A DNA stretch of 64,000 nt from a virus: the IMG/VR virus record IMGVR_UViG_3300045922_000167, positions 26,889 through 90,888 of that record. The stretch is one strand, 5' to 3'. Under the pieces are notes generated by a model that had not been told where the DNA came from, ran no database searches, and worked only from the letters and a program-made list of their open reading frames with translations. This document shows positions 3,481 through 20,161 of the stretch, one piece after another. Within the stretch, counting starts at the first letter, position 1. Each line of letters begins with the position of its first letter. The position numbers and the translations under genes were made by a program.

Positions 3481-3496
3481 AGTTATTGTAGTTTAT

Positions 3497-4663: not shown

Positions 4664-4688
4664 GTTTGTGTTTGTTAATTGTTGTTAA

Positions 4689-4916: not shown

Positions 4917-4952
4917 TTTACGAGTTAATTATGGTAATTTAATTCTGCTAAA

Positions 4953-7349
4953 TTAATCTTCTAATTCTTCATTTTCGTTATCTTCTTCAATTTTTTCTTT
5001 TAATTTTTTCGTATTCTTTTCTAATTTTTTGTTTACTTGTTTATTAATACTATCTTCTTCAGATTGCTTTTCTTTTATTTGTTTAATTGTCTCAGTATAA
5101 TATTGTTGGCGTTCGTTAATTTCCGCAACTATTATTTTCGTTTTGTTATCCTCATTTGTTTTCCAAGTATTAAATTGTATTTCTTTTTCTTTCATTTCTT
5201 TTTCCCAATTAAGTTGTTCTTGCTGTATTTTAGCTTCCATTTCTTGTTGTTTTTGTAACATTTCTTCTTTTCTCTTGAAAATAGCATTCATCTTTTCTTT
5301 CATTCCTGTAATGCTAGTTTCTTGTAAAACTTGTAATATATCAGCTAACGTTACTTGACCTGATTGAACCGACATAGCTATGTATTCGTCAAGTTTTCTT
5401 TGTATTTGAGCTAATCTACTATCATCATCTACATGTACTCCAAAGTCATAAAATGTCATATCACCAGGAAGTATACGTATCATTTTAACATTACCATCTC
5501 CTATCGCATATTGACTTTTATAACCGTACTCATCATAAACTTCTTTAGCTGTATTTAATAATCCAGTTATTACAGATTTTTTAGCTTGTTGATGATGAGC
5601 AAATAAGTACTGAGTAATATAATTAGATTGTTCTCTATTAGATACTGTAGCAGTAGCAGTTTGACCTGGATCATTAGCAGCACCTTGCCGTTCCTTATTA
5701 ACTCCACATAATCTTTCCCATTCTGATAATACATACTGCATTAAAGCTATGTAAACTTCAGCAGATTGACTTAAAGTTAAGTCTACTGTAGTCCATTGGT
5801 TGTACGTACTTGGCATACCAGATTCGCTTATTTGTGTAGTATCTACAAACAAAGCTCCATCTGTGTGAGCATGGTAAAGAATATCCGCAGGAGTCATTCC
5901 CTTAGATGTAGGTATTTGAGCTAAGTCAAGTACTACAAATTTACCTTTAGCTTGAGCTATTGTCATCTCAAGTCTGTACATAAGTATATTGTACAGTATT
6001 TGGTATACTTTTCCGTTATTTACGAAACTAGAAAGAAAGTTATTCTTATTACCTCGCCATATTCCTCTAAATCCTAACTCTACGTCATTAGGATTCATAT
6101 ACTTTCTATTTTGTACTTTTTTAGGACGTATGTATGGATATATACTAGGTCCAATACGAACTCCCTCCCATACTTCATTTAACCATCTTTTCTTCTTTTT
6201 ATCTCCAGGTTTTTCTTCATATTTAGATATATGTTCAAAAGAAGGTACATCTTCTTTAACTTCTTTACCATCGTAATAATATTCACAACTTCCATCTTCA
6301 CGTTCTACTTCAACAACTAATCTTTGTGATACCCATTCTGTACAATGTACTAATACGCTTAATTCGTTATTTTCAATACGGAACATTCCGTTCCAAATTC
6401 CCATAAAATTTGTACTTGCTATTGATCCTCCAGCTGGATACGCATTATTTGGAGAAGTAGCAAAATTCGCTAATTCTTCAACAGCTTCATCATCTAAATC
6501 ATCTCCATATGCTTCCAGTATATCAGACATTGTCATCCATCTATCTTCACATGCCATTAAAGCATCATGGATATATATACTATGTTGAGGTTTAGAACAC
6601 CAGAAATTCGCTGGATTAATTACTCTTAGTACAATATTTTTATCATATACGTCTATTTTATATATTTCTCTAGACGTAATTAAATAATCTAAGAATCCTT
6701 CTGCTGCTTTATATCTAAATTCAGTCTTGTAGTACAAATCGTCTAATAAGTCAGTAGCTAATTTTTCTATAGAAAGTTTACCATTTCCTTTCATGTAGGC
6801 ATTATATTCTTCTATAACACCTTCGTAATTATTTTGTATTTCAATTCCAAACTGTTGTTTAAGTTGTTCAACAGTATTTTTCATATATGCTGCTACTTGA
6901 CCTTGAATTTCAATATTCAATTTCTCATCAGCAACTTCAGGATTAACACCATACGCATAATACGAAAAAGGACGTAATTGTTCTTCACCTACTAGTACAT
7001 CAACTACTGGTTTAATTATATTATAATTACGTAGTTTAGCTGGAAATTGAAATTTCTCTCCTAAAGGTTGCGTTACGTACTTATATTCATCTTGATCAAA
7101 ATCTCCATTGTACAATGAGTACATATATCTAGCAAATAACTTTTCATTTAGATTTAAGTTATTTGACCAAACAGTTGCACTATTTGCAAAACCTATAATA
7201 GCATTTACGCAAGCCTTTTCCCAATCTTCTACACTTCCATATTTATCTATCTTTTGCTTTGTTGTTAACGTCTGAATAGGAAATGATGTAATCGTATAAC
7301 TACTGTCAGTGTTAAACGGATTACCAGATGTACCATATTTAGTAGCCAT
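4953..7349 (-). CDS. Portal protein, crAss-like
   Basis: 798 residues, the length expected for crAss-like portals. The N-terminal core includes 'RNYNIIKPVVDVLVGEEQLRP' near residues 107-127, matching the portal pattern in which a conserved helix contacts the clip and stem. The C-terminal 150 residues are a long Glu/Lys/Gln coiled-coil ending in an acidic tail, a usual barrel-like extension. It overlaps the terminase stop by 11 bp, the classic terL-portal order. It forms the twelve-fold DNA channel at one capsid vertex. The call is by pattern and position. Confidence 0.8.
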   Translation of the reverse strand: MATKYGTSGNPFNTDSSYTITSFPIQTLTTKQKIDKYGSVEDWEKACVNAIIGFANSATVWSNNLNLNEKLFARYMYSLYNGDFDQDEYKYVTQPLGEKFQFPAKLRNYNIIKPVVDVLVGEEQLRPFSYYAYGVNPEVADEKLNIEIQGQVAAYMKNTVEQLKQQFGIEIQNNYEGVIEEYNAYMKGNGKLSIEKLATDLLDDLYYKTEFRYKAAEGFLDYLITSREIYKIDVYDKNIVLRVINPANFWCSKPQHSIYIHDALMACEDRWMTMSDILEAYGDDLDDEAVEELANFATSPNNAYPAGGSIASTNFMGIWNGMFRIENNELSVLVHCTEWVSQRLVVEVEREDGSCEYYYDGKEVKEDVPSFEHISKYEEKPGDKKKKRWLNEVWEGVRIGPSIYPYIRPKKVQNRKYMNPNDVELGFRGIWRGNKNNFLSSFVNNGKVYQILYNILMYRLEMTIAQAKGKFVVLDLAQIPTSKGMTPADILYHAHTDGALFVDTTQISESGMPSTYNQWTTVDLTLSQSAEVYIALMQYVLSEWERLCGVNKERQGAANDPGQTATATVSNREQSNYITQYLFAHHQQAKKSVITGLLNTAKEVYDEYGYKSQYAIGDGNVKMIRILPGDMTFYDFGVHVDDDSRLAQIQRKLDEYIAMSVQSGQVTLADILQVLQETSITGMKEKMNAIFKRKEEMLQKQQEMEAKIQQEQLNWEKEMKEKEIQFNTWKTNEDNKTKIIVAEINERQQYYTETIKQIKEKQSEEDSINKQVNKKLEKNTKKLKEKIEEDNENEELED

Positions 7350-9630
7350 ACTTAGTCGTATTTTTAATAAATTCCAAATTTAATCTATTAACTAATTCTT
7401 GCCTTGTTTCTGCATCATTTTTTTCTAAAATTTCTGTAACGTAAGGTACTCTTTGCAGTACTCCGTTTACAAATTCAAACCTAGAAAATTCTCTTTGAGA
7501 TGGAGCTATTTGTTGGTATTTCTTTATTTGCTCTAAATGCCATTTGTATAGTAGCGTAATACCAGCTGCCATTACAGCATCAAAGTTCTTTGCAGGATCT
7601 GGATCATATTTCGCTAATTCCGATAATAACTCCACAGAATAAATTTTATCACAATGATCTTCTACGTATGCTTGTAATGTAAGTAGTAACTTTTCCTTAA
7701 TTGGTGTAGTCATCGGAAGACCATAACGTTTAGATCTAATAGCTTTTGAATCAGGTACTATTGATTTAATCAATTGTACGGGTTGTACTATTAGTTTATG
7801 TAGCCAACCATGAAATTGAAATCTTTCGTACATATTATTACCTGAATCTTCATGTAATACTCTGGTATTATAGTAGTTTAATAACTTATAGACGTTGTAA
7901 TAAAATTCATCTTGAGTAGGTGGTCTATCTATATATTCTGCTACGATTGCATTTGAAAACTTATCGTCATCAATTCCAGTAGAGTTTTTAAAAATAAACA
8001 AAGCACCTTTCGAATCAGACGTAGACTGATCATAGTTATACGGATCACATCCAGCTGAATACGTAGTTAGCTCTACATTCTTTACAGGATGTTCGTACAC
8101 TTTGAACTTACCTGTACGACTAGGCACCCAGACGTATTGACCGTTTTCCTCTTTTATATCTCCACGCTGTTCCACTGAGTAATACTCCTTCAACGTCTTT
8201 AGCTTAGATAACTGTTCGTTAATCAAAGCTAAGTTGAACATATTTCCTCTCGTAATTAAGAATGCGTCTTTAGGTACGATAGGACGATACTGAAGTTCCG
8301 AGTACAATACTTTCCTATCAGGTTGCTTAGCTTTCTTTTGTCTTGTTTTTACTAAGTAGTCTAAAGCATCCTTGTAGTTTGTTACTTGAATGATAGTATT
8401 CGTTAATAGTTTATTTAACGCTTCAGTGACTATTAAACTCTTTGGGGTTAAGGCCCCAAGACTCATCCTACTATCATCATTCCTACTACTATCATTCGTA
8501 CTACTAGTACTACCATCATTCGTACTCCTATCATTCGTACTATTATCATTTGTAGTACTTAACTCATTTACGTCATTTTCGTTAGCTAACGATTCCAAAT
8601 TTTGTGCTACGTTAGGAACGTAATTTTCATCCTTAGCGTCTTTGAACTTATACTTCGTTATACATAATGAATTTACGTTATTTGACCTCTTGTTCGTTAG
8701 GAACTCCTTTAACGTTTTAGGACTTTTCTTCTGGTTTATACAATATTGTGCGGGAATGAACACACTAAATCTACCACGTTCTTCTACGTCATTCTCATCT
8801 ACAAACCTACTATCAAACGAAATCAAGTTATAATTGTCTGGATTGTAAAACATCGTACAAAAATCAGCTGTACCTTTCTCCATATCACCACCCGTACCTA
8901 TGATAATCGGTATACCTATCTGGGTATCGCCTGACATCCAACATTCCGTAGACGCATTGTAACATTCAATTAGATTTTTGTGCTTACCAGCTTCCTCAAA
9001 TATGTGAATTCTAGGACGTGTACCGTTAGCTGCCATTACGTTATTAGCGTAATTTCGTATCCAGATGATAGATTGATTACCTCTGATGGATTCTACGCCA
9101 CGTTCGTCCTTTACTTTATATCCAGATACTACCTGTTTGTTCCAATCTTCCTTTATATACTGTTGTTTTAACTCAGGCGGTAAGTCAGATAAGCCTATAC
9201 GTAACTTAGTTACAAAATTCACTAAGTCATTTTCTTCTCCAGCTGATATTAAATTCTGCTGATTCGCAAAAAACGTAAAGATATGAGCTATTTTAGCTGT
9301 CATAGAGTACGTTTTACCTGCACCACGTCCAGTAACTAAGCACATTCCTTTACGTTCTCTAGCTGCTTTAGCTACACATTCAAAAATATACCAATCTAAA
9401 TCACGTAAAGTAGGTAATCCTTTTGTCTTACCAGTCATTTTAGCGTTATCTACTTCCATCATCCAGAAGTTTGTGTAGAAAAATAAGTCTCCTGGGTAGT
9501 GGAAGCCATCTATCGTAATACCGTTCCTACAGTAATCTATTACTTCCTTCCAAAAAGGAAGATATTCAATAGATTCCTTAGGAATCTTAGGCAATCCTTT
9601 ATCCTTAAATTCTGTAAATGAATTAATCAT
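7339..9630 (-). CDS. terL: Terminase large subunit
   Basis: 763 residues from ATG 9630; the frame is open to 9681 but the extra 17 residues run through a conserved regulatory repeat and are unlikely to be translated. The ATPase domain has Walker A GRGAGKT near residues 101-107 and Walker B IHIFEEAG with catalytic Glu. The RNase H-like nuclease has acidic motifs at GCDPYNYD (about 526), HEDSGNN and FDAVMAAG (about 685). Between the two domains, near residues 357-390, is a low-complexity Ser/Thr/Asn/Asp insert not usual for the family. It cuts and translocates DNA into the portal. Confidence 0.93.
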   Translation of the reverse strand: MINSFTEFKDKGLPKIPKESIEYLPFWKEVIDYCRNGITIDGFHYPGDLFFYTNFWMMEVDNAKMTGKTKGLPTLRDLDWYIFECVAKAARERKGMCLVTGRGAGKTYSMTAKIAHIFTFFANQQNLISAGEENDLVNFVTKLRIGLSDLPPELKQQYIKEDWNKQVVSGYKVKDERGVESIRGNQSIIWIRNYANNVMAANGTRPRIHIFEEAGKHKNLIECYNASTECWMSGDTQIGIPIIIGTGGDMEKGTADFCTMFYNPDNYNLISFDSRFVDENDVEERGRFSVFIPAQYCINQKKSPKTLKEFLTNKRSNNVNSLCITKYKFKDAKDENYVPNVAQNLESLANENDVNELSTTNDNSTNDRSTNDGSTSSTNDSSRNDDSRMSLGALTPKSLIVTEALNKLLTNTIIQVTNYKDALDYLVKTRQKKAKQPDRKVLYSELQYRPIVPKDAFLITRGNMFNLALINEQLSKLKTLKEYYSVEQRGDIKEENGQYVWVPSRTGKFKVYEHPVKNVELTTYSAGCDPYNYDQSTSDSKGALFIFKNSTGIDDDKFSNAIVAEYIDRPPTQDEFYYNVYKLLNYYNTRVLHEDSGNNMYERFQFHGWLHKLIVQPVQLIKSIVPDSKAIRSKRYGLPMTTPIKEKLLLTLQAYVEDHCDKIYSVELLSELAKYDPDPAKNFDAVMAAGITLLYKWHLEQIKKYQQIAPSQREFSRFEFVNGVLQRVPYVTEILEKNDAETRQELVNRLNLEFIKNTTKYGY
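8460..8560. repeat. Degenerate 12-bp repeat cluster inside terL
   Basis: Five near-copies of ATCATTCGTACT start at about 8476, 8491, 8515, 8530 and 8545, separated by 3-12 bp. They are in frame with terL and encode repeated Ser-Thr-Asn-Asp units. The tract lies in the loop between the ATPase and nuclease domains, where a flexible linker would be tolerated. It looks like recent expansion by slippage. Confidence 0.75.
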
Positions 9631-9644
9631 AGACGTGTTATTAT

Positions 9645-9750: not shown

Positions 9751-9752
9751 AG

Positions 9753-10352
9753 TTACTCATTATTTTGCTTTTCTAACATTCCTAATATACCAGATTCTAT
9801 TAACGATAATTCCGCATTACCTCTAGATTTACCTGTTTTCTTATTTTCTACTTCAGCTTTAAGTTTCTTACCTAATTCTATTACTTTATCTAACTTAGTC
9901 ATTACGGTAACTACTGCATCTATGTTTTCCATAGTACATACATTATTATCTAATACCATCTGAATTTCCTCTATTTTCCTAAAGTAGGAATCTACCATTC
10001 GTTGTTCAGGTGTTACAAGTAAAGGTTTAACTATTTCACAAAAAGATTTGTACGTAGGATTCGTCAAGTACTCTTCTAATTTCTGATTATTTTGAAATAG
10101 TATCTTCTTTACTTCGTTACATCTACTTTCGTACGGGTATTTATAATACGGAGAATCTGGATCTTCAGTTAACGCAAAGTACTGAAGTAACTTATATCCA
10201 ATTTCTTTTTGATTCCAAGTAATTGGTTTAGTTATATTAACTTCGTTATCCTTTAATTCTTTAGGTAACGCCAATAACTTGTGAGTTATAGGTAGCAATC
10301 TAAGTTGATACGTTAACTCCGCTTCTTGTGTGTGATTAAATTCAAATATCAT
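9753..10352 (-). CDS. Protein upstream of terL, candidate small terminase
   Basis: About 199 residues from ATG 10352 (MIFEFNHTQE); an in-frame ATG at 10367 is also possible. The protein is mostly helical and charged; residues 130-185 form a probable coiled-coil (VVTVMTKLDKVIELGKKLKA). It is the first gene of the leftward late unit and immediately precedes terL, the usual place for the DNA-recognising small terminase subunit. A clear helix-turn-helix is not obvious, so function is positional inference. Confidence 0.5.
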   Translation of the reverse strand: MIFEFNHTQEAELTYQLRLLPITHKLLALPKELKDNEVNITKPITWNQKEIGYKLLQYFALTEDPDSPYYKYPYESRCNEVKKILFQNNQKLEEYLTNPTYKSFCEIVKPLLVTPEQRMVDSYFRKIEEIQMVLDNNVCTMENIDAVVTVMTKLDKVIELGKKLKAEVENKKTGKSRGNAELSLIESGILGMLEKQNNE

Positions 10353-10633
10353 ATTACAAATATACATAAGTAAATGAATTTATGTATACGTCTCCCCGTA
10401 CAGTACCGTCTTTGTATTTACACCCCCGTACTTAAATACTATTATTTACGTCCCCGTAGGGGTAGTACAAAAATTTATTTCTACGTAGGATTACGTTAGC
10501 TTACGTTCCTAACGTAGGATTTCGTAGGATTTCGTAAAAAATGTAATGTACGCAGAAAATGTAATGTACGCAGACGGAGGTTGACCCCTTAACAACCTCC
10601 CCCCCGAGCTTTAGCGGTAATTAAAATTAAGGT
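10353..10633. promoter_or_regulatory. Divergent repeat-rich intergenic region, promoter and/or origin candidate
   Basis: No gene is encoded. CCCCGTA occurs at 10394, 10424 and 10452 (the last within CCCCGTAGGGG); CGTAGGATT occurs at 10484, 10513 and 10523; an 18-bp unit ending ATGTACGCAGA is tandemly repeated at 10539-10556 and 10557-10574; GGAGGTTG/CAACCTCC forms a hairpin at 10576-10600. The leftward head genes and the rightward arm both start here, so promoters for both must lie in it. The three sets of direct repeats resemble operator or iteron clusters. Confidence 0.6.
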
Positions 10634-10930
10634 ATGAACCAAGAACCACAACCAAAAGTTGTGTTCAACGTGGAAACCTTGAATAAACTTCTCGCTGTAA
10701 GCGAGAGGTATACTCAAGGCGTTCCCGTGAACGCAGAAGTGGTAATTCGTGGTAGCAGGGGGTTCAAGATGCTGTCTGCGGACGGCATTTTGGCGCTCCC
10801 AGCGCCCACAATGCCACAGGAGATGTTGATCGCAGGGGAGACCCTACCCTGCGTATTTAAGGAAATTGGGGGCACGATTCGTGCCTCCCTTGATGTAGAG
10901 GCAGCACGGGCTGCTACATCAAGCAAGTAG
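10634..10930 (+). CDS. Small protein of unknown function, hairpin-rich gene
   Basis: 98 residues, first gene of the rightward arm. The sequence is soluble, with no signal peptide or motif I recognise; residues 38-70 look like paired beta strands (VVIRGSRGFKMLSADGILAL). The gene is markedly more G+C-rich than its neighbours. It contains at least eight perfect inverted repeats, for example 10647-10663, 10690-10706, 10719-10734, 10792-10806, 10831-10853, 10871-10885 and the 10-bp stem 10889-10898/10914-10923. It is followed at once by a strong terminator, so it is probably a monocistronic early transcript. Confidence 0.6.
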   Translation: MNQEPQPKVVFNVETLNKLLAVSERYTQGVPVNAEVVIRGSRGFKMLSADGILALPAPTMPQEMLIAGETLPCVFKEIGGTIRASLDVEAARAATSSK

Positions 10931-10943
10931 CCCGTGCATTGTC

Positions 10944-10975
10944 AACCCCCCGAGCTTCGGCAAGGGGGGTTTTTA
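10944..10975 (+). terminator. Intrinsic terminator after the 98-residue gene
   Basis: AACCCCCC (10944-10951) pairs with GGGGGGTT (10964-10971) around a GAGCTTCGGCAA loop and is followed by TTTTTATT. GC-rich stem plus T-run is the textbook rho-independent form. Confidence 0.9.
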
Positions 10976-11158
10976 TTGTTAACATCATAACATGTGTTCA
11001 CCACATTCGTTATGATGTTCGTTTTCGTAGCAATTAAAATACATATCATAACATGTATTTTAATTGGCCACCAAACACACGGGATGTGTGTCGTTACTCT
11101 TACGTAAAAGAGAGTTTATGCCAAGTTCACTTAAAACTGGCAATAAAATCTACCATTA
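10976..11158 (+). ncRNA. Non-coding run of successive stem-loops
   Basis: No ORF is present. Stems are AACATCATAAC 10981-10991 with 11009-11019 (11 bp, with a smaller ATGTG/CACAT stem inside), CAATTAAAATACAT 11031-11044 with 11053-11066 (14 bp perfect), CACAC/GTGTG near 11085-11100, CTCTT/AAGAG near 11097-11112, and TGCCA/TGGCA near 11119-11142. They fill the leader of the lipoprotein gene at 11159. This may be a structured leader, a small RNA, or DNA structure. Confidence 0.5.
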
Positions 11159-11488
11159 ATGGCTAGATATTTATTAATCATCGCTGCCATGTTGCTGATA
11201 GTTGCATGCGAGTCGGAGCACGAACTCCGCTTGCGTGAGCTGTCGGCAGTAGCTGACAAGCTGTCAAGTCTCGACAGCGCTGAGTTTCAGACTGAGATTA
11301 CAAATCTCAAGTCCGAAATGTGGCGCTACGAGGCAAAGGCGGAAAGGCTCGACTCTTTGTTCGAGCACACGCCTAATGACAGAGCCAGAGTCGAGCTTAG
11401 AGAAGAAGCTGAAAGGCTTCGTCTCGAAGCCAGCTATTCAAGGTATCTCCTTGATTTAGCTGAGACTCGCTGGGCTATTCGTCAGTAG
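11159..11488 (+). CDS. Small lipoprotein with coiled-coil
   Basis: 109 residues. A hydrophobic signal (LLIIAAMLLIVAC) with a lipobox ending at Cys17 marks export and lipidation. The rest is a charged helix with heptad-like Leu and Glu spacing, likely a coiled-coil. Phage lipoproteins of this size can be outer-membrane spanin parts or superinfection-exclusion proteins; neither is shown. The gene is G+C-rich compared with most of the window and contains many hairpins, such as GCTCGA/TCGAGC near 11346-11365 and GGCTTCG/CGAAGCC near 11416-11432. Confidence 0.6.
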   Translation: MARYLLIIAAMLLIVACESEHELRLRELSAVADKLSSLDSAEFQTEITNLKSEMWRYEAKAERLDSLFEHTPNDRARVELREEAERLRLEASYSRYLLDLAETRWAIRQ

Positions 11489-11719
11489 CGTAGCAGCGGA
11501 GTCCTAACTAAGCCTGAGGGATTCGGGTGAGGGTTAGGTGCAGTGAGCGACCACTGTATAAATCAGAGTCGCAACGGAGCAATGACTCCATCCAACAGCC
11601 CACCACACGTAAGTGTGGTGGTGCGATGTTGGTAGCTCTCAGTGGTAGATGAGAGAGCATAAAAAATTCGTCTCCCAGCGCTGGACTGATTTCCAGTAAT
11701 TATTTTTAATTAAAAAAAA
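11489..11719 (+). ncRNA. Structured non-coding RNA candidate with a 9-bp GC-rich stem
   Basis: No ORF of note. CCACCACAC (11600-11608) pairs with GTGTGGTGG (11613-11621) inside an outer CCAAC/GTTGG pair. CCTAAC/GTTAGG (about 11503-11541) and CAGTG/CACTG (about 11543-11557) form further stems; GCTCTC/GAGAGC (11635-11640/11653-11658) contains a CTCAGTG element; CTGGA/TCCAG lies near 11682-11695. It ends in an A/T-rich leader with nine A residues before the ATG at 11720. No known RNA family was recognised. Confidence 0.5.
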
Positions 11720-11914
11720 ATGAAATATATCTTCAAGTCAAACTTTGGGTGCGATGACACGCACCTAACATACGAGAAAGCCCTTGAATACTTAAAAGAA
11801 TGCGGAATAGAAAAGCCGCAAATGGAATTAAAAAATTTGAGGCAAAGAAAAATAAGGTTTATAGCACTAAGCATAAGTGACTTTTTTGGTCACCTTCGCA
11901 ATATAGACGATTAG
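11720..11914 (+). CDS. Small unknown protein
   Basis: 64 residues, MKYIFKSNFGCDDTHLTYEK at the start. Composition is ordinary, with an amphipathic helix near residues 17-30 and no export signal. The start is supported by the A-rich leader also used by the gene at 12141. Hairpins occupy the gene: GGTGCG/CGCACC near 11749-11766, GTGAC/GTCAC near 11877-11893 and ATAGACG/CGTCTAT spanning the stop. Function unknown. Confidence 0.55.
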   Translation: MKYIFKSNFGCDDTHLTYEKALEYLKECGIEKPQMELKNLRQRKIRFIALSISDFFGHLRNIDD

Positions 11915-12140
11915 TAACCGTCTATGTTGCAGGGAGTATTTTAATAGTTTTCACTCTCTAAATCAAGAAAACTATTCAAGGTTGGTGAATGCCCCGCAAG
12001 GGGCTAACCTTGTAAATATCTCACCATCTTGACGTAACGTGCAAGCGTCAAGATTATAAAGCACAACCCTGTATCAGGTTTAGGGGTGTTTACTGGTACA
12101 GGGTTCATCAAAACACCCATTATTTTAATTTTAAAAAAAA
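11915..12140 (+). ncRNA. Structured leader with pseudoknot before the 12141 gene
   Basis: Four stems follow each other: ATAGTTTTC 11944-11952 with 11967-11975; CAAGGTT 11977-11983 with 12006-12012 enclosing GCCCC-GCAA-GGGGC (11991-12004); ATCTTGACG 12026-12034 with 12046-12054; AACCCTGTA 12065-12073 with 12097-12105. The loop of the last stem contains GGGTGTTT (12084-12091), which is complementary to AAACACCC (12111-12118): an H-type pseudoknot ending 22 bp before the ATG. This is the layout of a cis-acting regulator or a processed small RNA; the class is unknown. Confidence 0.6.
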
Positions 12141-12419
12141 ATGGAAAAGACAATAAAACTTACTTCAGATGATTTGGTGGAGCTAATCCACCAAACCCAA
12201 ATGGACCTGCACAAACTCCATCTGGGAAAAGTCCTGAAATTGGAAATTATTCCGTTCAAACAGGCTTGCGAAGGCGAAAGGATAGCCTTCGAACCGTACA
12301 AAAGATACGGAAATTCGCTTATTTTATTGACAGAAGTAAACCAAGAAGAGGTCCACCTCACAATAAAAAAGCGAACCAAACTAATTCGCTTGGTGTACGA
12401 GCGAATTATTATAGACTAA
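12141..12419 (+). CDS. Small unknown protein downstream of a pseudoknot
   Basis: 92 residues, charged and probably helix-strand mixed (TIKLTSDDLVELIHQTQMDL near the start). No motif recognised. It starts after nine A residues at 12132-12140. The gene holds several inverted repeats: TTTGGTGG/CCACCAAA near 12173-12195, CCCA-ATGGA with TCCAT-TGGG near 12198-12229, GAAGGC/GCCTTC near 12270-12290 and AATTCGCT/AGCGAATT near 12384-12408. Function unknown; regulation by the upstream structure is plausible. Confidence 0.55.
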   Translation: MEKTIKLTSDDLVELIHQTQMDLHKLHLGKVLKLEIIPFKQACEGERIAFEPYKRYGNSLILLTEVNQEEVHLTIKKRTKLIRLVYERIIID

Positions 12420-12426
12420 AATAAAA

Positions 12427-12480
12427 TCAAGTACGTTAATCAGCTCTCGGTACTACCGCAGAATTGATTAACGTGCTTGA
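12427..12480 (+). other. Long stem-loop between two small genes
   Basis: TCAAGTACGTTAATCA (12427-12442) pairs with TGATTAACGTGCTTGA (12465-12480): 16 pairs, one of them G-U. A smaller CGGTA/TACCG stem lies in the loop. No T-run follows, so it is less like a terminator than a processing or regulatory element. Confidence 0.75.
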
Positions 12481-12499
12481 CGTTTATTTAATTTAACAT

Positions 12500-12703
12500 A
12501 TGCAAACCTTTAGTATAGATTTAACCAAATTCTTGAAGGAATTTGGGATTATTGAAAAAAAAGAAATTGCTGAATTCGAGAATTTCAGCAATTTCTTTTT
12601 TAACTCTATGGCTGGGGATGGTTTTTCCATCTCAAGCCAAAATGAGTTGGAGTCCCAAGTCAAAGCCCTCGTGGCGGCTTGGGCTTATCTGAAGCAACAG
12701 TAA
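12500..12703 (+). CDS. Small unknown protein
   Basis: 67 residues with Phe-rich and Leu-rich helices (FLKEFGIIEKKEIAEFENFS). No motif or signal peptide is recognised. Inside the gene AAAAAAGAAATTGCTGAA-type sequence near 12559-12576 is mirrored by its complement near 12585-12602, a stem of about 16 bp, and CCAAATTC/GAATTTGG lies near 12526-12547. A terminator hairpin starts five bases after the stop, so this may end a transcript. Confidence 0.5.
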   Translation: MQTFSIDLTKFLKEFGIIEKKEIAEFENFSNFFFNSMAGDGFSISSQNELESQVKALVAAWAYLKQQ

Positions 12704-12707
12704 AAAA

Positions 12708-12749
12708 CTACGCTAACAGTGACAGGGTTAGCGTAGTTATATTTTTTTT
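12708..12749 (+). terminator. Intrinsic terminator
   Basis: CTACGCTAAC (12708-12717) pairs perfectly with GTTAGCGTAG (12727-12736), then TTATATTTTTTTT follows. It separates the 12500 gene from the 12756 gene. Confidence 0.85.
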
Positions 12750-12755
12750 ACAGCT

Positions 12756-13067
12756 ATGAAAAAACTGATAAACCTTACTGGACATGACGTAGTCATTAAC
12801 GGTGAGATAATTGAACCTCGATTGAGATTAAGAGTAGAATTTGAAAAAACCTACGTTGACGGCTTATATGTCTTTCAAATTAAAGACAATACGCCTAAAC
12901 AACGTGAGGGTGTGTTATACATAGTTAGCGAAAAATACGCTAGTGTATTTAGGAGAAAAGATATAGTATTTCCAGTCAACCAATTACGTGACATTAACAA
13001 TAAAGTCATAGCGTGTGGGGGATTAGGATACTATAAAAGAATGAGACCAGAAAAAACATCTGGTTGA
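12756..13067 (+). CDS. 'INLTPH' family phage protein, copy 1
   Basis: 103 residues. The pattern INLTGHDVVI at the start, GVLYIVSEKYAS in the middle and NKVIACGGLGYY at the end matches two other proteins in this window (13747 and 14709) and a widespread uncharacterised family of phage and actinobacterial proteins. It is predicted to be a small mainly-beta domain. No catalytic residues are conserved between the three copies that I can point to. This copy is the most divergent, lacking the GLPEP segment. Function unknown. Confidence 0.6.
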   Translation: MKKLINLTGHDVVINGEIIEPRLRLRVEFEKTYVDGLYVFQIKDNTPKQREGVLYIVSEKYASVFRRKDIVFPVNQLRDINNKVIACGGLGYYKRMRPEKTSG

Positions 13068-13069
13068 TT

Positions 13070-13216
13070 ATGTTTGATAAATCTCTATCATGCAGAGATG
13101 ATAAATGTATGACGTGTCGGAACAACGAAAGAGTTCTATGTGTTATCTTAACCCCTCAACGTAGTGCACGGCGTTGGGGGATTTTTAATCCTCTCTGTGC
13201 AACCACTGAGTGTTAA
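13070..13216 (+). CDS. Short Cys-rich protein, possible zinc ribbon
   Basis: 48 residues, ATG 13070 to TAA 13214-13216, starting two bases after the previous stop. Cys residues occur as CRDDKCMTC, then ERVLC, then PLCATTEC; four of these could bind zinc. The frame is intact and closely spaced like its neighbours, and hairpins ATCTCT/AGAGAT and CAACG/CGTTG occur within it as in adjacent genes. Its last codons overlap a CTCAGTG element, so coding status is moderately supported only. Confidence 0.4.
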   Translation: MFDKSLSCRDDKCMTCRNNERVLCVILTPQRSARRWGIFNPLCATTEC

Positions 13217-13228
13217 TATCTTATTTCT

Positions 13229-13741
13229 ATGTGTGTAAAGATAAATAACAGATTAAGTTCCTACGAAGCCTACGTTAGGAACGTAAGGAACTTACTAATA
13301 GCTATACTCATCCTGTGTTCTTGTCGCCCATGCGAAAGGAACGTCAGGAACGATGTTATTCCTGTTAGTACTCAGTGTGAGATAAGAGAGATTAAAAATT
13401 TTATAGAATTAAAACATATCCTACAACGTTATGATATACCTTGTCAGGATATGTTCGTGAAAATAGCTATGTACGAAAGTGCATGGTTAAGTAGTAGTTT
13501 ACATGTTACGTACAATAATTCATTCGGTTGGTGTTATACTGAACATGAAGATATTTGTGCTAACGTGTATGGTAGCGCTCATTTTGCTTCTTACGAAAAG
13601 CAATTTGAGTTCATGGTTAAATGGGTTAACTTAAATCCTAAACGTCCCACCGAATCGTGTGAGGACTACTTTAGGAGAAGACATTACAATGTCGTTAACC
13701 CTAATTATTACAACATTTTAAGTAAAATCATAATCAATTAA
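13229..13741 (+). CDS. Peptidoglycan hydrolase, glucosaminidase-like, membrane-anchored
   Basis: 170 residues. A hydrophobic segment LLIAILILCSC (residues about 22-32) ends in Cys and looks like a signal anchor or lipobox. Residues 75-135 have the glucosaminidase pattern: IAMYESAW with the catalytic Glu, then NNSFGW (family NNLFGI), then a YGSAHFASYE segment and a conserved Trp. It would cleave the glycan backbone of the cell wall. A CTCAGTG element lies just upstream and another, inverted, inside codons 45-55. Repeated VRN/ERN codons come from repeats of AGGAACG. Endolysin or entry-associated lysin are both possible. Confidence 0.65.
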   Translation: MCVKINNRLSSYEAYVRNVRNLLIAILILCSCRPCERNVRNDVIPVSTQCEIREIKNFIELKHILQRYDIPCQDMFVKIAMYESAWLSSSLHVTYNNSFGWCYTEHEDICANVYGSAHFASYEKQFEFMVKWVNLNPKRPTESCEDYFRRRHYNVVNPNYYNILSKIIIN

Positions 13742-13746
13742 ATAAA

Positions 13747-14085
13747 ATGGAAAATATTCACAAAATAATCAATTTAACTCCCCACGTTATAAACGTGGTG
13801 GAGGATGACAAAATTATATTAACGTTACCACCTAGCGGCACTGTCGCTAGGGTTAAAACCGAAGAGTACGTCATAGGCGTACTCAATAAAACGGTATGTA
13901 TTTATGAGATAGAATTAGAGGAAGTCTACGGACTTCCTGAACCAGAAAAGGACACATTTTACATTGTGTCCTTAATAACGGCACAAAGCTTGAAAGGCGT
14001 CAGAAATGACATTTTAGTCACGCACGGAGCAATCCGTGATAGTAACGGCAATGTAATTGGCTGCAAGGGCTTTGCTCGTGTGTAG
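13747..14085 (+). CDS. 'INLTPH' family phage protein, copy 2
   Basis: 112 residues; the clearest member: INLTPHVINV at 8-17, LPPSGTVARV at 27-36, GLPEP, FYIVSLITAQ and GNVIGCKGF at the end. These are the family's characteristic blocks. Function is unknown in the family. The gene is six bases after the hydrolase stop. It contains six perfect short-loop hairpins: 13782-13798, 13831-13851, 13864-13884, 13919-13938, 13948-13973 and 14023-14038, with stems of 6-9 bp. A terminator follows. Confidence 0.65.
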   Translation: MENIHKIINLTPHVINVVEDDKIILTLPPSGTVARVKTEEYVIGVLNKTVCIYEIELEEVYGLPEPEKDTFYIVSLITAQSLKGVRNDILVTHGAIRDSNGNVIGCKGFARV

Positions 14086-14105
14086 CCTATATATATGATG
14101 TATAA

Positions 14106-14147
14106 AATAAGCCAAAGGACTTTACGTTCTTTGGCTTATTTGTTTTT
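14106..14147 (+). terminator. Intrinsic terminator
   Basis: AATAAGCCAAAG (14106-14117) pairs with CTTTGGCTTATT (14129-14140), a perfect 12-bp stem followed by TGTTTTT. It ends the transcript of the 13747 gene. Confidence 0.9.
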
Positions 14148-14158
14148 AAAGTGTTAAG

Positions 14159-14311
14159 ATGAAAGAAAACAAAAATAGTAAGTTTTTCAACTTACTTGTG
14201 AAAAAATACCCTAACGTACCCAGGAGTGTACTTAGGTGTATTTACGATTACTCCTATAACATAAAAGAACAATTAATCTTAATTTACAATATTTACAATG
14301 ACAGTCATTAA
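14159..14311 (+). CDS. Short basic protein of 50 residues
   Basis: ATG 14159 to TAA 14309-14311, overlapping the next gene by 14 bp. The product begins MKENKNSKFFNLLVKKYPNV and is rich in Asn, Lys and Tyr. It fills an otherwise empty 200-bp gap, has gene-like overlap with its neighbour and includes a TAAGTT/AACTTA hairpin like the surrounding genes. No function can be suggested. Confidence 0.4.
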   Translation: MKENKNSKFFNLLVKKYPNVPRSVLRCIYDYSYNIKEQLILIYNIYNDSH

Positions 14312-14537
14312 AAAAATTAATTTCAAAAAACAACAAATTGTAGCTTCAAACGTAAGCTACACGTTGTTTGAATACCACAACGAGGTGTGCAACATAATGG
14401 GCGCTGCTGGCTGCCCCAAAGCAGAATTACCAGCGCTTGGTGATGTTGTGTCCTACTTCGATCTATACGAACTATATGGATCGTATGACCCACAAAAATG
14501 TGCAGTAATTTTGTTAAAAAAGAAACTTTACATATAA
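14298..14537 (+). CDS. Small unknown protein
   Basis: 79 residues, starting MTVIKKINFKKQQIVASNVS. The centre has CNIMGAAGCPKAELPALGD with two Cys six residues apart, and the end is hydrophobic. No family recognised. Its TAA overlaps the next ATG by one base (TAATG), so the two are translationally coupled. GTAGCTT/AAGCTAC (near 14340-14360) is one of several internal hairpins. Confidence 0.5.
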   Translation: MTVIKKINFKKQQIVASNVSYTLFEYHNEVCNIMGAAGCPKAELPALGDVVSYFDLYELYGSYDPQKCAVILLKKKLYI

Positions 14538-14749
14538 TGGGTCTGTATCTGTGGAATGTAAAAAAAGAAAACAATACTTACGAAACCAAGTATTGTGATC
14601 TGCGACACATAGTATCCTTAGTAAAAAAGGAACTAATCTTAAAAGCTCAAACCGTTTTAGACGGTGTGATAGTTACAGTAAAACATGAAAATGATGAAAA
14701 CGATGAAAATGATAAATCTACTCCAGCACAACATCAAAATGCTGGATGA
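14537..14749 (+). CDS. Small unknown protein with acidic Asn/Asp/Glu tail
   Basis: 70 residues from ATG 14537, chosen because it overlaps the previous stop; an upstream ATG at 14498 in the same frame is less likely. The end contains HENDENDENDK encoded by a 9-bp repeat (GATGAAAAC-type). The last 41 bases overlap the start of the 14709 gene. It contains CAATACTT/AAGTATTG near 14563-14586. Function unknown. Confidence 0.45.
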   Translation: MGLYLWNVKKENNTYETKYCDLRHIVSLVKKELILKAQTVLDGVIVTVKHENDENDENDKSTPAQHQNAG

Positions 14750-15038
14750 AAATCTGCAAATAAGACAAGAAATCCCATCTGAGGGATTAGCATGGGTAGA
14801 GCAACGTTATCTGATTAAAGATAACGTTGCTGGTGTTCCCGTACTTGATGTTGAGTACGGTAATATTAGCGGCCTTCCAGAGCCGCAAGATGGCGTTGTG
14901 TATATCGTTAACGGATTAGTAGCAGCTGTTGCTGCTGCTAGAGGTCGGAATGACGTGTATTCTGTACACGTTCAGAAAAATAATAAGAAGATTATCGGGG
15001 TTAAAAGCCTCGTACTACCGCAAAAACTAATATTTTAA
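14709..15038 (+). CDS. 'INLTPH' family phage protein, copy 3
   Basis: 109 residues from ATG 14709 (MINLLQHNIKML); the frame is open back to ATG 14685, but the 14709 start aligns with the other copies. It keeps GLPEPQDGVVYIVNGLVA and the closing KIIGVKSLVL. It replaces PPSG with IPSEG. Inside are the 12-bp perfect stem 14801-14812/14819-14830 and 7-bp stems at 14839-14860, 14920-14940 and 14953-14971. Family function unknown. Confidence 0.6.
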   Translation: MINLLQHNIKMLDENLQIRQEIPSEGLAWVEQRYLIKDNVAGVPVLDVEYGNISGLPEPQDGVVYIVNGLVAAVAAARGRNDVYSVHVQKNNKKIIGVKSLVLPQKLIF

Positions 15039-15046
15039 TTAATAAC

Positions 15047-17512
15047 ATGTTAAAGTTTAAGAGTAAAAAAGAGGCGTACGAATGGAGACGCCAATACCAG
15101 TCGATCTATTACGAGCATACTGGTAATAAATTTTATACAAAAAACCCCTTACATTCAAGGGGATACGTAGGTATAGAGGTGAGATTTTATGCTCACCATA
15201 GTCACGGATTAAATGTAAGAGGGTTATTCAAAAGTAAAATAGAGGAATGCCCTCTATTGTTTAATAACATTCCCAAAATTGAATTAGATTATAAAGATTT
15301 AGAAATATCTAAATCTTGGAACTTGGAAAGAAACCAATTAAGTATTGGTTTCAATCCAAGACAAATTATTGAATTATTAGAAAACCATCAAATAACTCGA
15401 GATGATCTCGAGTTTTTAATATTCGAGGTAGAAGTAGGAGCTGCGTTCTCTCGAGAATATAGTTTCTATTACAAGGACAAAAGTGAACAAGAATTTGAAG
15501 ATCAAGCAATCAAAGATTTTCAAAACCAATTACCAAAAGCATGTTACAACATGAAACCCATGTTGCTTGCTTTACGTGATACTGACCGTGTAGCTTTATT
15601 TAAAACCCCAGACAGAAATAAGAATGGGGAAAAGAAGAGTTATACTTATATGGAGATATGGCATAACCATTGCCATTTACTCCCTAAAGCTAGCAAAGGG
15701 GAGCTGAGACAATGTAATTATGACCAAATGAATTCTGATGAAAAAGAATTCGTAAATCATGTAAGTAATATTGTAAGTAAAACTTACAACATAGACGAAA
15801 CAAAATCGTCTATAGTAAGGTATGGTAATCGTATATTTAGTATTGCCTTCAAGGTAAATGTTGAAAGCAATCCTAACATACTAGTTCTTGCGGATGATTC
15901 TGCTATGTATAATCATCATAGCTACGATGTATCATTTAACGGTATAACTAAAGCTATGTACAGTCAACATGCTGTACTTAAAGCTGAGTTAGGTAGTCTG
16001 AAAGAACATAACAAAATTTCAGATAGTTTTATTTATGAAGCCTTAATAGGGCAAATTAAAACTAGCTGTTTTAACACACTTAGTAGAATATCTGAGTGTA
16101 AATATCAAGGAAGAGAAAATATCCTAAACTTAAAAGGATATCGTTCCATTGATTACAACCTAGCCAATCATGGAATTGCTATCCCTATGAGAGAAGACAT
16201 AAAAGACGACTTCATAGAAGAAGTCATCAAAAAAGTGTGCTTCTTTTCTTTGAGTAATAAAGCTGCTAGTACGATGTATTTAGCTCCTTACCAAAGAGAA
16301 GGTTATCAGAATTATAAAGTTATTGAAATAGAGGGCAGTAATGCTGTCTTAGGGTTTAAACATCAACCTACGCTTAACAAGAAATTGTTAGCGACAGACA
16401 ATTACAATCCTCTGGTAGACTTAAAAAACAGCGGTATGCTGTTTGACCTGGAGTATAATATAAGTTATTTACCAGATCTATGGTCAATAACTCATTATAT
16501 TATAAACTACTTGGTGAAACCGATATCTTTAAAACATTTTAAGAAAATGTTAAAAAAGGTATCCAACCAATTCAACATAACTAATGTTGATATAATTAAA
16601 GAATTCAACATTGGTAATGTTAATGCAGGTTTAATGTACAAAGCAATGTATTGGCTTTGTATGTTAGAAATACTAAAAGATCAAGACATTAAACCCATAA
16701 GTGTAAGCAGGCTAATAAATGACGTTGAATATTTTGAAGACGTCATAAATTTACCTCGTAATTCAAGCAATTTAGAAATTTATGCTCTAAGTGAAACAAG
16801 TTCAGAAAAACGCAAACAGTTTATTAAAGCTGCGTTTGAAAAAGAACAAGAATCACTTAAAGCAGAGTATGAAAAGTATATTGTACATGCTAGAATCAAA
16901 ATCTTCAACGAAGTTGTAAGACTTCAAGCAAAGAATGATTATAATAGCAGGTATAATGATCCAGTCCTAATTCTTTCCAACGGTAAGAATTTAGAAAAGT
17001 CAAACAATAAGTACAAAATAACCGAAGAAATACAAAAAGCCTATCAGGTGTATTTAGATAAATTTGGTTATTTATTGGAAGGAGAGTACGATATAGAAAC
17101 TTTAATTAATACCCACTACACAAACACTCACAATCCGCTATTAGACCATAACGAGTCTTATACGGATTTAAGTGAAGGTATAAGGTTTCATATTGACTAT
17201 GAGAACAAACGTGCGGTAACATCTAAAGGCATTATCGTAACGTTTGACAAGTTAAGGGAATACATCAAAAGTTTTTCTCAAAACCAGCCTATCGTAACAA
17301 CGTATGGCGTAGGTAAGATTGAGAACAACTATATTGCTATTGGATGCCATTTAATTCATTCCAGCCAAATAAAACATCTGTACGACAACATTCCTGACGT
17401 ACAAAACGTAGAGATCGACTGGAGTTTGTATGAAACGAAGTTCCCTATTCCTACTCTAATGTCTCTTGAAGAGTACATAGAGAGGAATAGTAAATACGCT
17501 AAATTGTTATAG
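15047..17512 (+). CDS. Large orphan protein of 821 residues
   Basis: I do not recognise this protein. It is soluble, Asn/Lys/Tyr/Ile-rich, with no signal peptide, transmembrane segment, Walker motif or metal-binding motif that stands out. The N-terminus has many His and Tyr (RFYAHHSHGLNVRG; MEIWHNHCHLLPKAS). Residues about 590-660 are a charged coiled-coil. It is by far the largest gene in the hairpin-rich arm, and its first 1.4 kb is itself full of perfect inverted repeats, for example 15238-15258, 15771-15789 and 15791-15813. Position before lysis and replication genes gives little clue. Confidence 0.55.
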   Translation: MLKFKSKKEAYEWRRQYQSIYYEHTGNKFYTKNPLHSRGYVGIEVRFYAHHSHGLNVRGLFKSKIEECPLLFNNIPKIELDYKDLEISKSWNLERNQLSIGFNPRQIIELLENHQITRDDLEFLIFEVEVGAAFSREYSFYYKDKSEQEFEDQAIKDFQNQLPKACYNMKPMLLALRDTDRVALFKTPDRNKNGEKKSYTYMEIWHNHCHLLPKASKGELRQCNYDQMNSDEKEFVNHVSNIVSKTYNIDETKSSIVRYGNRIFSIAFKVNVESNPNILVLADDSAMYNHHSYDVSFNGITKAMYSQHAVLKAELGSLKEHNKISDSFIYEALIGQIKTSCFNTLSRISECKYQGRENILNLKGYRSIDYNLANHGIAIPMREDIKDDFIEEVIKKVCFFSLSNKAASTMYLAPYQREGYQNYKVIEIEGSNAVLGFKHQPTLNKKLLATDNYNPLVDLKNSGMLFDLEYNISYLPDLWSITHYIINYLVKPISLKHFKKMLKKVSNQFNITNVDIIKEFNIGNVNAGLMYKAMYWLCMLEILKDQDIKPISVSRLINDVEYFEDVINLPRNSSNLEIYALSETSSEKRKQFIKAAFEKEQESLKAEYEKYIVHARIKIFNEVVRLQAKNDYNSRYNDPVLILSNGKNLEKSNNKYKITEEIQKAYQVYLDKFGYLLEGEYDIETLINTHYTNTHNPLLDHNESYTDLSEGIRFHIDYENKRAVTSKGIIVTFDKLREYIKSFSQNQPIVTTYGVGKIENNYIAIGCHLIHSSQIKHLYDNIPDVQNVEIDWSLYETKFPIPTLMSLEEYIERNSKYAKLL

Positions 17513-17564
17513 GGTTGTAGTCCTGAGCATGACTTTAAAAGGCTCATTTTTTTATTTTAACAAC

Positions 17565-18110
17565 ATGAAGCATTTAATTTTCCTCCTCTTACTCATCTCA
17601 CTGAGTTCTTGCGGAGTATTAGAAAAACGTTACTATAAAAGCTTAGTAACGTACGACAATTGCCTAAAGGTAGTTAATCCAGTTGTACTGGATATACCTT
17701 GTAAGGATACGATTATTACGCTGCCTACGTACAGTACGTTAATTAACGTACCTTTAAGAGATACGTTTATTGATAATACAATATGGTATCAATTACTAGA
17801 TTCTATTTTTACTTACAAAGATAGCTTAACTGAAGCTAAGTTATTGTATGATAAAACTACTAATAAGTTTAATCTATATGTACGACAACAGGAAAAAGCA
17901 TTTAAGGTAAAAGTAGCTGATGAATTAGCGTTATTAGACCAATACAACAGATTAAAACGTAACTATCAAATTTTATTAAACGATAGGAACGATTTAATCG
18001 CTCAACAAGCAAAAAAAGATGAAAAAAAGCTAACTAATTTAATTTATATAGCTGCTTTCATCTTGTCTTTGCTGATTATAGCTTTTATAACGTTTTACTT
18101 AAAACAATGA
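17565..18110 (+). CDS. Unimolecular spanin
   Basis: 181 residues from ATG 17565 (MKHLIFLLLL); the upstream ATG at 17529 would add 12 residues before the signal peptide and is unlikely. The N-terminus is a lipoprotein signal with lipobox LSSC (Cys near residue 16). The C-terminus, about residues 155-180, is one transmembrane helix (NLIYIAAFILSLLIIAFITF). A lipid anchor at one end and a membrane helix at the other is diagnostic of u-spanins, which fuse the two membranes in the last step of lysis. The middle has a coiled-coil near 125-150. It ends four bases into the polymerase gene. Confidence 0.75.
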   Translation: MKHLIFLLLLISLSSCGVLEKRYYKSLVTYDNCLKVVNPVVLDIPCKDTIITLPTYSTLINVPLRDTFIDNTIWYQLLDSIFTYKDSLTEAKLLYDKTTNKFNLYVRQQEKAFKVKVADELALLDQYNRLKRNYQILLNDRNDLIAQQAKKDEKKLTNLIYIAAFILSLLIIAFITFYLKQ

Positions 18111-20161
18111 ATTATTTGATTACAAACACAAAAACGTTATTTGATGAAAATAACGGTTGGAAAATACTAAACGTAATTTCTCAAACAGAAACTACGATTA
18201 GTAGATTAGTAAATGTGTTACAATCTAGTAATATATATTATTTAGATACTGAAACTACTGGATTAGATCCACACCTTAATAGATTACTTTTAGTAACTAT
18301 TAGATCAGGTTACGATACCATAGTAATTGATTTTTCTAATTTAGGAGATAAACAAGAAGCTATTAAAGTCTTGTTAAATTCATATCTAACTAAAGAAGAA
18401 AAAACAATTGTATGGTTTAATGGTAAGTTTGATTACAAGTTTATGTTAAAGAACTTTGGTATTCATTTAACTAATCATTATGATTTGTTTTTAGCTCATA
18501 AAGCTATAACAAATGGGTTAGATGAACCAAATAGTCTTAAGGATGTAGTTAACAAATACTTAGGATTTTATATGGCTAAAGAAGAACGTACTGAATTCCT
18601 AAAGTATGATAAATCAACTTATTTACCTAAGTTATCTCATATACAGTACGCTGCAAAAGATGTAGACGTTCTTGAAGATTTGTACGAAATATTACGTAAG
18701 GAAGTAAGAGACAAAGAATTAACTCAAGTAGTTGATTTAGAAAATTCTGTTATGCCAGCATATGCTTTTATGGAATATACTGGAGTTCCTTTGGATATTA
18801 CGTATTGGCAAGAAAATATTATATCTAAATACCAAGCGTTAGCTGATATATGTTTAGATAATTTAACTAAGATAGCTCTCAGTGACCCTGCACTCTCCAA
18901 ATATAAAATAAAAAATCCTATCGTAAATTTATTTGGAGAACCAGATTACGCTATTTCTAGAAACGGTAAACCTTTAATAAGTAAGGAAGCCATATATCAT
19001 AGCATTAACTGGAATTCTAACCAGCAAGTGTTAGAAATAATGAAAAATGACTATGGTATTGAATGTAGTTACAAAATACAAGGTCAAGTAAAACAAGGCG
19101 TTAATGCCGATGTTTTACTTGCACATTGTAGCGAAGAATTTAAACACTCAGTGAGTGATGGAGACTTAAAAAAAGGTACAGAGACTGCGAGTAGTATATT
19201 TGAATGGTTGTACCTTTTGAAGAAAACTGAGAAGCTCTTGAGAACGTATGGACAAAATCTAATAGACATAATTAACCCAGTTACTAAACGTCTCCATTGT
19301 GAATTTAACCAAATGGGTACAGACACAGGAAGGGTATCTTCAAACAACCCTAACCTTCAAAACTTACCACGTTTGCAAGAATTTCGTTCAGGTATTAGAG
19401 TACATGGAGATGATAAATGGTTGATAACATTAGATTACGATGGTGCTGAATTACGAATCATAGCTGATGGAGCTGAAGAGCCTACTATGATTAGAGCTTT
19501 TAATGACGGTGAGGATGTTCACGCTTTCTTAGCTACTAAAGCCTATGGCGTTACAGTAACTAAGAAAGAAAACAAACATCTAAGAAATAATATGAAGACA
19601 GTGAACTTTGGATTAGCTTATGGGGCTGGTCCGTCTAAGTTTGCTGATATATTTGGTTCAGTAGAAAAAGCTAAAGACTTCTTGGATAACGTTTACTACA
19701 AGAACTTTCCTAAACTTAAAACGTTTTTTAATTCCTTAGCTGAATTCGGTCAAACTAACGGCTACATAACTACTTTTCCTCCAATAAGTAGAAAACGATT
19801 TTTTCCTAATCACGAAGAAATCGTAGAAAAAGCTAAAACGGACAAAGAATATCAAGCTAAGTTAGCTGCGATAGGTAGAGAATCTAAAAATACTCCTATT
19901 CAAGGTACTTCAGCTGATATAATCAAATTAGCTACTGCTACGTTATTTAACGAAATACTACGTAATAATATGTTAAATAACGTTAAAATAATTAACCAAG
20001 TACATGATGAATTAACTATTGAATTAAATGGATATTCATTAGAAGAAGCTAGATCTTTTGCTACTTGGATTAAAGGGGTTATGGTATATGCTGGCTCTTT
20101 ACAAATAAAACATGTCGTTATGGAAGTATCATACGACATAGACAAAATATGGGTTAAATAA
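18107..20161 (+). CDS. DNA polymerase, family A, with 3'-5' exonuclease
   Basis: 684 residues. The exonuclease domain has YYLDTETTGLD at about 44-54 (Asp and Glu of motif I), NGKFDYKF (motif II) and YAAKDVDVLEDLY (motif III). The polymerase domain has motif A LDYDGAELR near 441 (usual DYSQIELR), motif B RNNMKTVNFGLAYG near 495-508 and motif C VHDE near 632. There is no 5' nuclease domain. It overlaps the spanin gene by four bases. It is the replicative polymerase. Several CTCAGTG elements (18878, 19147) are inside the gene. Confidence 0.95.
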   Translation: MNYLITNTKTLFDENNGWKILNVISQTETTISRLVNVLQSSNIYYLDTETTGLDPHLNRLLLVTIRSGYDTIVIDFSNLGDKQEAIKVLLNSYLTKEEKTIVWFNGKFDYKFMLKNFGIHLTNHYDLFLAHKAITNGLDEPNSLKDVVNKYLGFYMAKEERTEFLKYDKSTYLPKLSHIQYAAKDVDVLEDLYEILRKEVRDKELTQVVDLENSVMPAYAFMEYTGVPLDITYWQENIISKYQALADICLDNLTKIALSDPALSKYKIKNPIVNLFGEPDYAISRNGKPLISKEAIYHSINWNSNQQVLEIMKNDYGIECSYKIQGQVKQGVNADVLLAHCSEEFKHSVSDGDLKKGTETASSIFEWLYLLKKTEKLLRTYGQNLIDIINPVTKRLHCEFNQMGTDTGRVSSNNPNLQNLPRLQEFRSGIRVHGDDKWLITLDYDGAELRIIADGAEEPTMIRAFNDGEDVHAFLATKAYGVTVTKKENKHLRNNMKTVNFGLAYGAGPSKFADIFGSVEKAKDFLDNVYYKNFPKLKTFFNSLAEFGQTNGYITTFPPISRKRFFPNHEEIVEKAKTDKEYQAKLAAIGRESKNTPIQGTSADIIKLATATLFNEILRNNMLNNVKIINQVHDELTIELNGYSLEEARSFATWIKGVMVYAGSLQIKHVVMEVSYDIDKIWVK

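Follow-up and report, generated by a model that had tools for sequence, protein, structure and literature searches.

Densely spaced hairpins in the early arm of a Crassvirales-like phage genome suggest selection for locally folded mRNA

The DNA analyzed in this work (the window, 64,000 nucleotides) spans positions 26889-90888 of a virus contig 90,888 bases long. The genome carrying the hairpins described below is that of a Crassvirales-like phage: its portal, large terminase and major capsid proteins match crAss-type PHROGs (8.9e-91, 3.8e-85 and 9.2e-43, respectively), the Crassvirales Pfam families crAss_MUZ (muzzle; 3.9e-50) and CrAss_Ring_1 (ring; 1.7e-40) are present, and tblastn matches of the TerL protein are mostly to crAss-like phages, with identity of 23-33%. 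No close relatives were found among viral contigs and phages using peptide patterns of the 821-aa protein, the DNA polymerase and the capsid protein, and no DNA-level similarity to phage records was revealed. The nearest portal relative (L009) is not hairpin-saturated in its available sequence, a short contig.

The genes are organized in two opposed arms. The leftward arm (1-10.4 kb) contains the capsid, portal and terminase genes, and the rightward arm (10.6-35.5 kb) contains small orfs of unknown function, an orf of 821 aa, and the genes for DNA polymerase, helicases, primase and nuclease. The GC skew changes its sign near 10.4 kb, at the divergent intergenic region, and the GC content is raised in the hairpin-bearing arm (0.42 at 10-12 kb). 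A search for the DxDxD site of a giant virion RNA polymerase (RNAP) revealed an orf of 5133 aa carrying SDFDVDK (the DFDVD motif), for which Pfam, PHROG and PDB searches gave no noteworthy match. The main features are listed below, with hairpin numbers given as observed versus expected.

4953..9630, - strand: portal and terminase genes directly to the left; no clear excess (internal control)
10200..18500, + strand: initial, hairpin-saturated portion of the rightward arm (early/replication), defined by stem counts, shuffles, change point and folding z
10368..10633, no strand: intergenic region separating the divergent leftward (structural) and rightward arms, where the excess starts (orf map, GC-skew switch, change point)
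10634..10930, + strand: 98-aa orf without Pfam or PHROG match; 7 hairpins versus 1.6 (codon shuffles)
11159..11488, + strand: 109-aa orf; 5 hairpins versus 1.7 (codon shuffles)
11489..11719, + strand: non-coding, strongly structured, folding z -5.3; no Rfam match
11915..12140, + strand: non-coding, strongly structured, folding z -4.2
12141..12419, + strand: 92-aa orf; 3 hairpins versus 1.6 (codon shuffles)
12756..13067, + strand: 103-aa orf; 3 versus 2.3, no clear excess (codon shuffles)
13229..13741, + strand: 170-aa glucosaminidase-like orf; 4 versus 3.0, no clear excess (codon shuffles)
13747..14085, + strand: 112-aa orf, phrog_30542; 6 hairpins versus 1.8, mRNA folding z -6.1
14685..15038, + strand: 117-aa orf, product paralogous to that of 13747; 6 hairpins versus 2.0, including the 13-bp stem at 14800-14831
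15047..17512, + strand: 821-aa orf without family match; 37 hairpins versus 16.6 (z 7.8), sparser in the last ~400 nt
18107..20161, + strand: DNA polymerase (A family); residual excess, 20 versus 13.3

Hairpins were defined as non-overlapping perfect stems of at least 6 bp with loops of 3-9 nt. An earlier note on this DNA had described the interval 10570-16400 as saturated with perfect stem-loops. We found 65 such stems in it, and the saturation proved to be both stronger and longer than described (z 6-14 per 2 kb). The four 2-kb segments at 10, 12, 14 and 16 kb contain 22, 19, 23 and 16 stems versus 3.6-4.8 in dinucleotide shuffles (z 13.6, 10.8, 8.8 and 6.2, a 3-6-fold excess); elsewhere in the 64 kb, the 2-kb segments stay at or below z 4.5, mostly within about z 3. 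The profile along the whole 90.9 kb agrees with these counts, and the excess over the rest of the genome is clear. According to a three-segment change-point fit, the dense region extends from ~10.15 kb (range 9.5-10.75) to 18.5 kb (17.7-19.2), i.e., further than the end at 16400 given before, with a density of 13 stems per kb versus 5-6 on either side. The excess begins at the divergent region and is restricted to the + arm, where it persists weakly through the remainder beyond ~18.5 kb.

The longer the stem, the stronger the enrichment: stems of 4 bp are enriched 1.2x, those of 6 bp 2.8x, of 7 bp 5.8x and of 9 bp more than 20x. At 10.4-18.1 kb we counted 37 stems of at least 8 bp, while 200 shuffles gave a mean of 3.56 and a maximum of 9. 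Exact inverted 7-mers are 10-13x enriched at spacers of 3-25 nt and 3x at 26-50 nt, with no excess beyond, and direct repeats reach at most a ~2-fold excess, in some spacer classes. When 8-kb segments were compared (n=1104), the top value, 3.3x, fell in the window.

In total, 110 hairpins were found at 10.4-17.6 kb, with a mean spacing of 65 nt. Their stems are mostly 6-9 bp long, rarely exceeding one helical turn, their loop lengths are evenly distributed from 3 to 9, and no common stem or loop sequence was detected among them. Since the stems are unrelated in sequence and the loop lengths are flat, it appears that structure rather than a motif is favored. For 100 hairpins, T-runs after the stem were counted 10 times on the + strand versus 5.6 expected, and 18 times on the - strand versus 13.3 expected; as this is only slightly above chance, most hairpins are not terminators; candidate terminators lie between genes at 13153-13180 and 14105-14141. 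The Rfam search revealed nothing at the gathering score and only weak, chance-level matches below it. All ten hairpins for which coordinates had been given exist, at positions right to a base or two; the one placed at 14801-14830 with a 12-bp stem has an exact span of 14800-14831 and a stem of 13 bp. In the 10634 gene we found six hairpins with loops of 3-9 nt, or seven with loops of up to 25 nt, instead of the eight claimed.

To locate the signal within codons, we used shuffles that keep the protein and its codon usage; they do not keep dinucleotides at codon boundaries, but the dinucleotide shuffles agree with them. The codon-shuffle z is 5.8 for gene 10634, 3.6 for 13747, 3.1 for 14685 and 7.8 for 15047, and mostly near 0 for the structural genes. 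Genes 12756 and 13229 have z 0.6, i.e., the small genes are not uniformly enriched. The stem excess is present in all three codon registers. Because it survives codon-preserving shuffles in the main genes, synonymous sites carry the signal, as the earlier note had proposed. Its argument that the encoded proteins are unrelated fails for the products of 13747 and 14685 (its gene 14709), which are paralogues with 31% identity, both belonging to phrog_30542; most of their hairpins are at different positions. We rejected a property of one gene family, since in four other phages the genes homologous to 13747 show no clear enrichment (1, 2, 0 and 5 hairpins versus 1.8, 2.0, 1.0 and 3.1 expected).

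Folding energies gave a similar picture. The mean z of the arm is -2.7 in 120-nt segments relative to sequence-order shuffles, and 60% of the segments are below -2. The sense strand of the arm folds better than the antisense strand (z -2.70 versus -2.38, p=0.03), and the same is true for the rest of the + arm (p=0.03), while the late arm shows no difference (p=0.57). Of ten start-codon regions, nine are weakly structured. Per 40 nt, starts average -2.1 kcal/mol versus -5.5 kcal/mol inside genes (p=0.002), a difference that is not significant (p=0.15) after correction by the starts' own shuffles for their A+T-rich composition.

To learn whether this organization extends to related phages, we analyzed 19 Crassvirales-like genomes, in part or whole, assigning the early and late arms manually by strand and by the location of DnaB and portal, not by RNA-seq. 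The observed/expected ratio (codon shuffles) was higher in the early (replication) arm than in the late (structural) arm in 16 of the 19, with medians of 1.47 versus 1.18 (Wilcoxon p=8e-5), and the contrast was essentially the same for orfs of at least 150 aa. No clear hairpin gradient from the early start was revealed in these relatives. No early excess over late was seen in phi14:2 and crAss001 (ratios of 0.97 and 0.89), the two cultured members of Crassvirales for which transcription data exist, nor was an arm contrast obvious in N4, another phage with a virion RNAP. Thus, transcription by a virion RNAP alone does not predict hairpins. Overall ratios in other phages were 0.71 for T7, 1.19 for lambda, 1.33 for T4 and 1.50 for N4. 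A mild excess by itself is therefore common; what stands out is the contrast between arms and how large the excess is in the window.

Whether the structure acts in RNA or in DNA can be judged from helices with a single G-U pair, which hold only in the RNA of that strand, because the opposite strand reads A-C at this place. In the early arms of the relatives, sense helices with one G-U numbered 204 versus 103 expected (1.97x) and those with one A-C 137 versus 101 (1.35x), other mismatches being at ~1.25x; in their late arms the values for G-U, A-C and other mismatches did not differ (1.24, 1.21 and 1.16). Thus, weaker but RNA-type selection operates in the same arm of the relatives. In the window arm, helices with one G-U numbered 10 versus 1.9 expected, those with one A-C 3 versus 1.4, and all others 23 versus 7.0. 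The G-U preference there is suggestive, based as it is on ten helices, and A-G mismatches are nearly as enriched (9 versus 1.9). In the relatives' early arms G-U is tolerated on the transcribed strand and much less on the other one, which favors selection on early mRNA over mutation templated by DNA. In addition, the excess ends at the divergent region although the DNA runs on, and therefore the hairpins follow the direction of transcription.

The earlier note had offered either selection for RNA structure or a process in which hairpin arms template each other, and the former is favored by the relatives' sense G-U pairs, by the slightly better folding of the sense strand in the window arm, by the open starts and by the edge that follows transcription. 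Templating would occur by quasi-palindrome correction, in which one arm of an imperfect inverted repeat is copied from the other while DNA near an origin in the divergent region is replicated or repaired, producing perfect hairpins without benefit to RNA. Perfect Watson-Crick stems are indeed very strongly enriched in the window arm (91 versus 16.6 expected), and the limitation to short spacers, the peak near the GC-skew switch (a possible origin) and the excess in all codon registers agree with this mechanism. However, it predicts equal G-U and A-C values, contrary to those of the relatives' early arms (the window itself being only suggestive); moreover, there is no excess to the left of the same skew switch, start regions are mostly spared, and reading frames are preserved, the excess residing at synonymous sites. 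Although we consider quasi-palindrome correction an unlikely general cause, templating may have contributed within this one genome, where the G-U test rests on few events. Chance, base composition or an assembly artefact can practically be dismissed: GC is higher in the arm, but shuffles that keep composition, including dinucleotide- and codon-preserving ones, leave the excess and refute this explanation, the orfs are intact, and elsewhere on the contig no comparable excess is seen.

Two further explanations concern the function of the hairpins. A virion RNAP structurally closest to the RNA/DNA-dependent QDE-1 could need its nascent RNA folded at once to avoid a hybrid with the template. Such a role has an analogy in RNA-phage replication, where local structure keeps the plus and minus strands apart. 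The hairpins are local, dense and present in both coding and non-coding RNA, they are located in the arm assigned to the virion RNAP in Crassvirales (PMC10136315), and the phi14:2 RNAP resembles QDE-1 (PMC10770324). Nevertheless, this requirement for strand separation seems quite improbable, given that phi14:2 itself lacks the early/late contrast and that the RNAP of the present phage is recognized only by the DFDVD motif, without family or PDB support. It is very unlikely that every hairpin is a separate regulatory element (a terminator, protein-binding site or riboregulator): the few real terminator candidates between genes fit this idea, but T-runs are only slightly above the expected numbers on both strands, and stem and loop sequences are not shared.

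We consider it probable (about 0.6) that selection favors local folding of the early transcripts over most of their extent, which would shield the RNA and keep it off the template. This reading draws directly on the excess, its synonymous basis and arm specificity, the early/late contrast of the relatives and the G-U tolerance of their sense strand. Synonymous codons would be chosen so that approximately every 65 nt closes into a hairpin of 6-10 bp, in coding and non-coding sequences alike, with start codons left mostly open. The polymerase making the early mRNA would work uncoupled from host ribosomes; when folded, this mRNA would be a poor substrate for single-strand-specific attack by host RNases, nuclease toxins or RNA-targeting defence, and would hybridize less with the DNA template. 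A role in dsRNA sensing, suggested before, found no support. According to a review of Crassvirales (PMC10136315), early transcription by the virion RNAP of phi14:2 is resistant to rifampicin, this enzyme drives early and middle genes in Crassvirales, and late genes are likely transcribed by the host RNAP. Because early and middle genes are attributed to the virion RNAP, the hairpin-rich arm is the one expected from it, and we infer that this polymerase makes the folded transcripts and that shielding or template release is the benefit. As an example of RNA-targeting defence, Cas13 shows a preference for unpaired RNA (PMC7360764). Because the contrast is missing in both phi14:2 and crAss001, we find a hazard specific to the host or lineage likelier than an obligatory trait of the polymerase.

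More tentatively, and with considerable doubt, it can be hypothesized that Crassvirales early arms in general, made by an injected QDE-1-like RNAP, are selected for continuous self-folding hairpins, so that the product leaves the template and survives uncoupled from ribosomes; this would be an ordered structure like that of RNA viruses, with the present lineage as its extreme. If selection for folded early mRNA is confirmed, early mRNAs of phages would be exposed to a particular danger against which folding helps; this bears on why silent sites differ between early and late phage genes and provides a testable handle on the cellular handling of crAss-like virion RNAP transcripts. We found no earlier report of such hairpin saturation in the open-access literature, which does not prove its absence.

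The hairpins can be compared with several known systems. The N4 virion-RNAP hairpin promoters are few, have a defined sequence and are located at transcription starts; the present elements are likewise short stem-loops in DNA early in infection but comprise ~110 unrelated stems, mostly inside genes. Phages phi14:2 and crAss001 share the opposed replication and structural arms, with early and middle genes on one strand, but their replication arm is not enriched in hairpins relative to the late one. Pervasive RNA structure at synonymous sites is a hallmark of some RNA viruses, from which genome-scale ordered RNA structure (GORS) is known, and dense local structure is found in ssRNA phages. As in these systems, local folding here pervades coding sequence, involves synonymous sites and has no conserved motif; folding is below that of shuffles over many kb, but it does not span a viral RNA genome, since it concerns the mRNA of a dsDNA phage and is confined to one arm, bounded at the divergent region. 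Finally, reduced mRNA structure at start codons of dsDNA viruses was reported by Zhou and Wilke (2011; PMC3072339), and the start regions of the present phage are weakly structured too; their work deals with relaxation at starts, and not with structure gained along genes.

Perfect stems in excess of codon shuffles, which preserve protein and codon usage, were also revealed in other phages. The early-arm ORF sets L116, L127, L128 and L089 of three Crassvirales-like relatives (G013, G010 and G004) displayed a 1.6–1.8-fold hairpin excess, and these are the next best loci, after the window, for studying the hairpin effect. By the same measure, phage N4 (L137–L140) showed a 1.5-fold excess across its genome, compared with 0.7 in T7, and no obvious arm contrast was detected in the N4 genome.

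Two non-coding stretches of the window (11489–11719 and 11915–12140) are predicted to form very stable folds. An Rfam search with both gave no match; they may represent structured RNAs. Degenerate direct repeats (ACGTAGGATT..., AATGTAATGTA) were observed at 10483–10568, within the divergent intergenic region, and are possibly promoter or origin elements. Two intrinsic-terminator candidates suggest that several short transcripts are produced from the small early genes:

13153–13180, + strand, intrinsic-terminator candidate between small early genes
14105–14141, + strand, intrinsic-terminator candidate between small early genes

The small proteins encoded at 13747–14085 and 14685–15038, in the same early arm, are paralogues (31% identity, both phrog_30542). 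Paenibacillus, Microcystis, Pararheinheimera and Thermobifida phages, as well as phages of archaea, carry homologues. A glucosaminidase-like gene (PF01832) lies at 13229–13741 among small early genes, an unusual location for a lysin-type enzyme.

Each end of the contig (G000) falls within a very long leftward ORF:

G000 1–15400, leftward, ORF of 5133 aa with a DFDVD motif
window 58808–64000, leftward, ORF of about 1730 aa

This arrangement agrees with a genome that is circular and permuted, and with a putative giant RNAP-type polyprotein.
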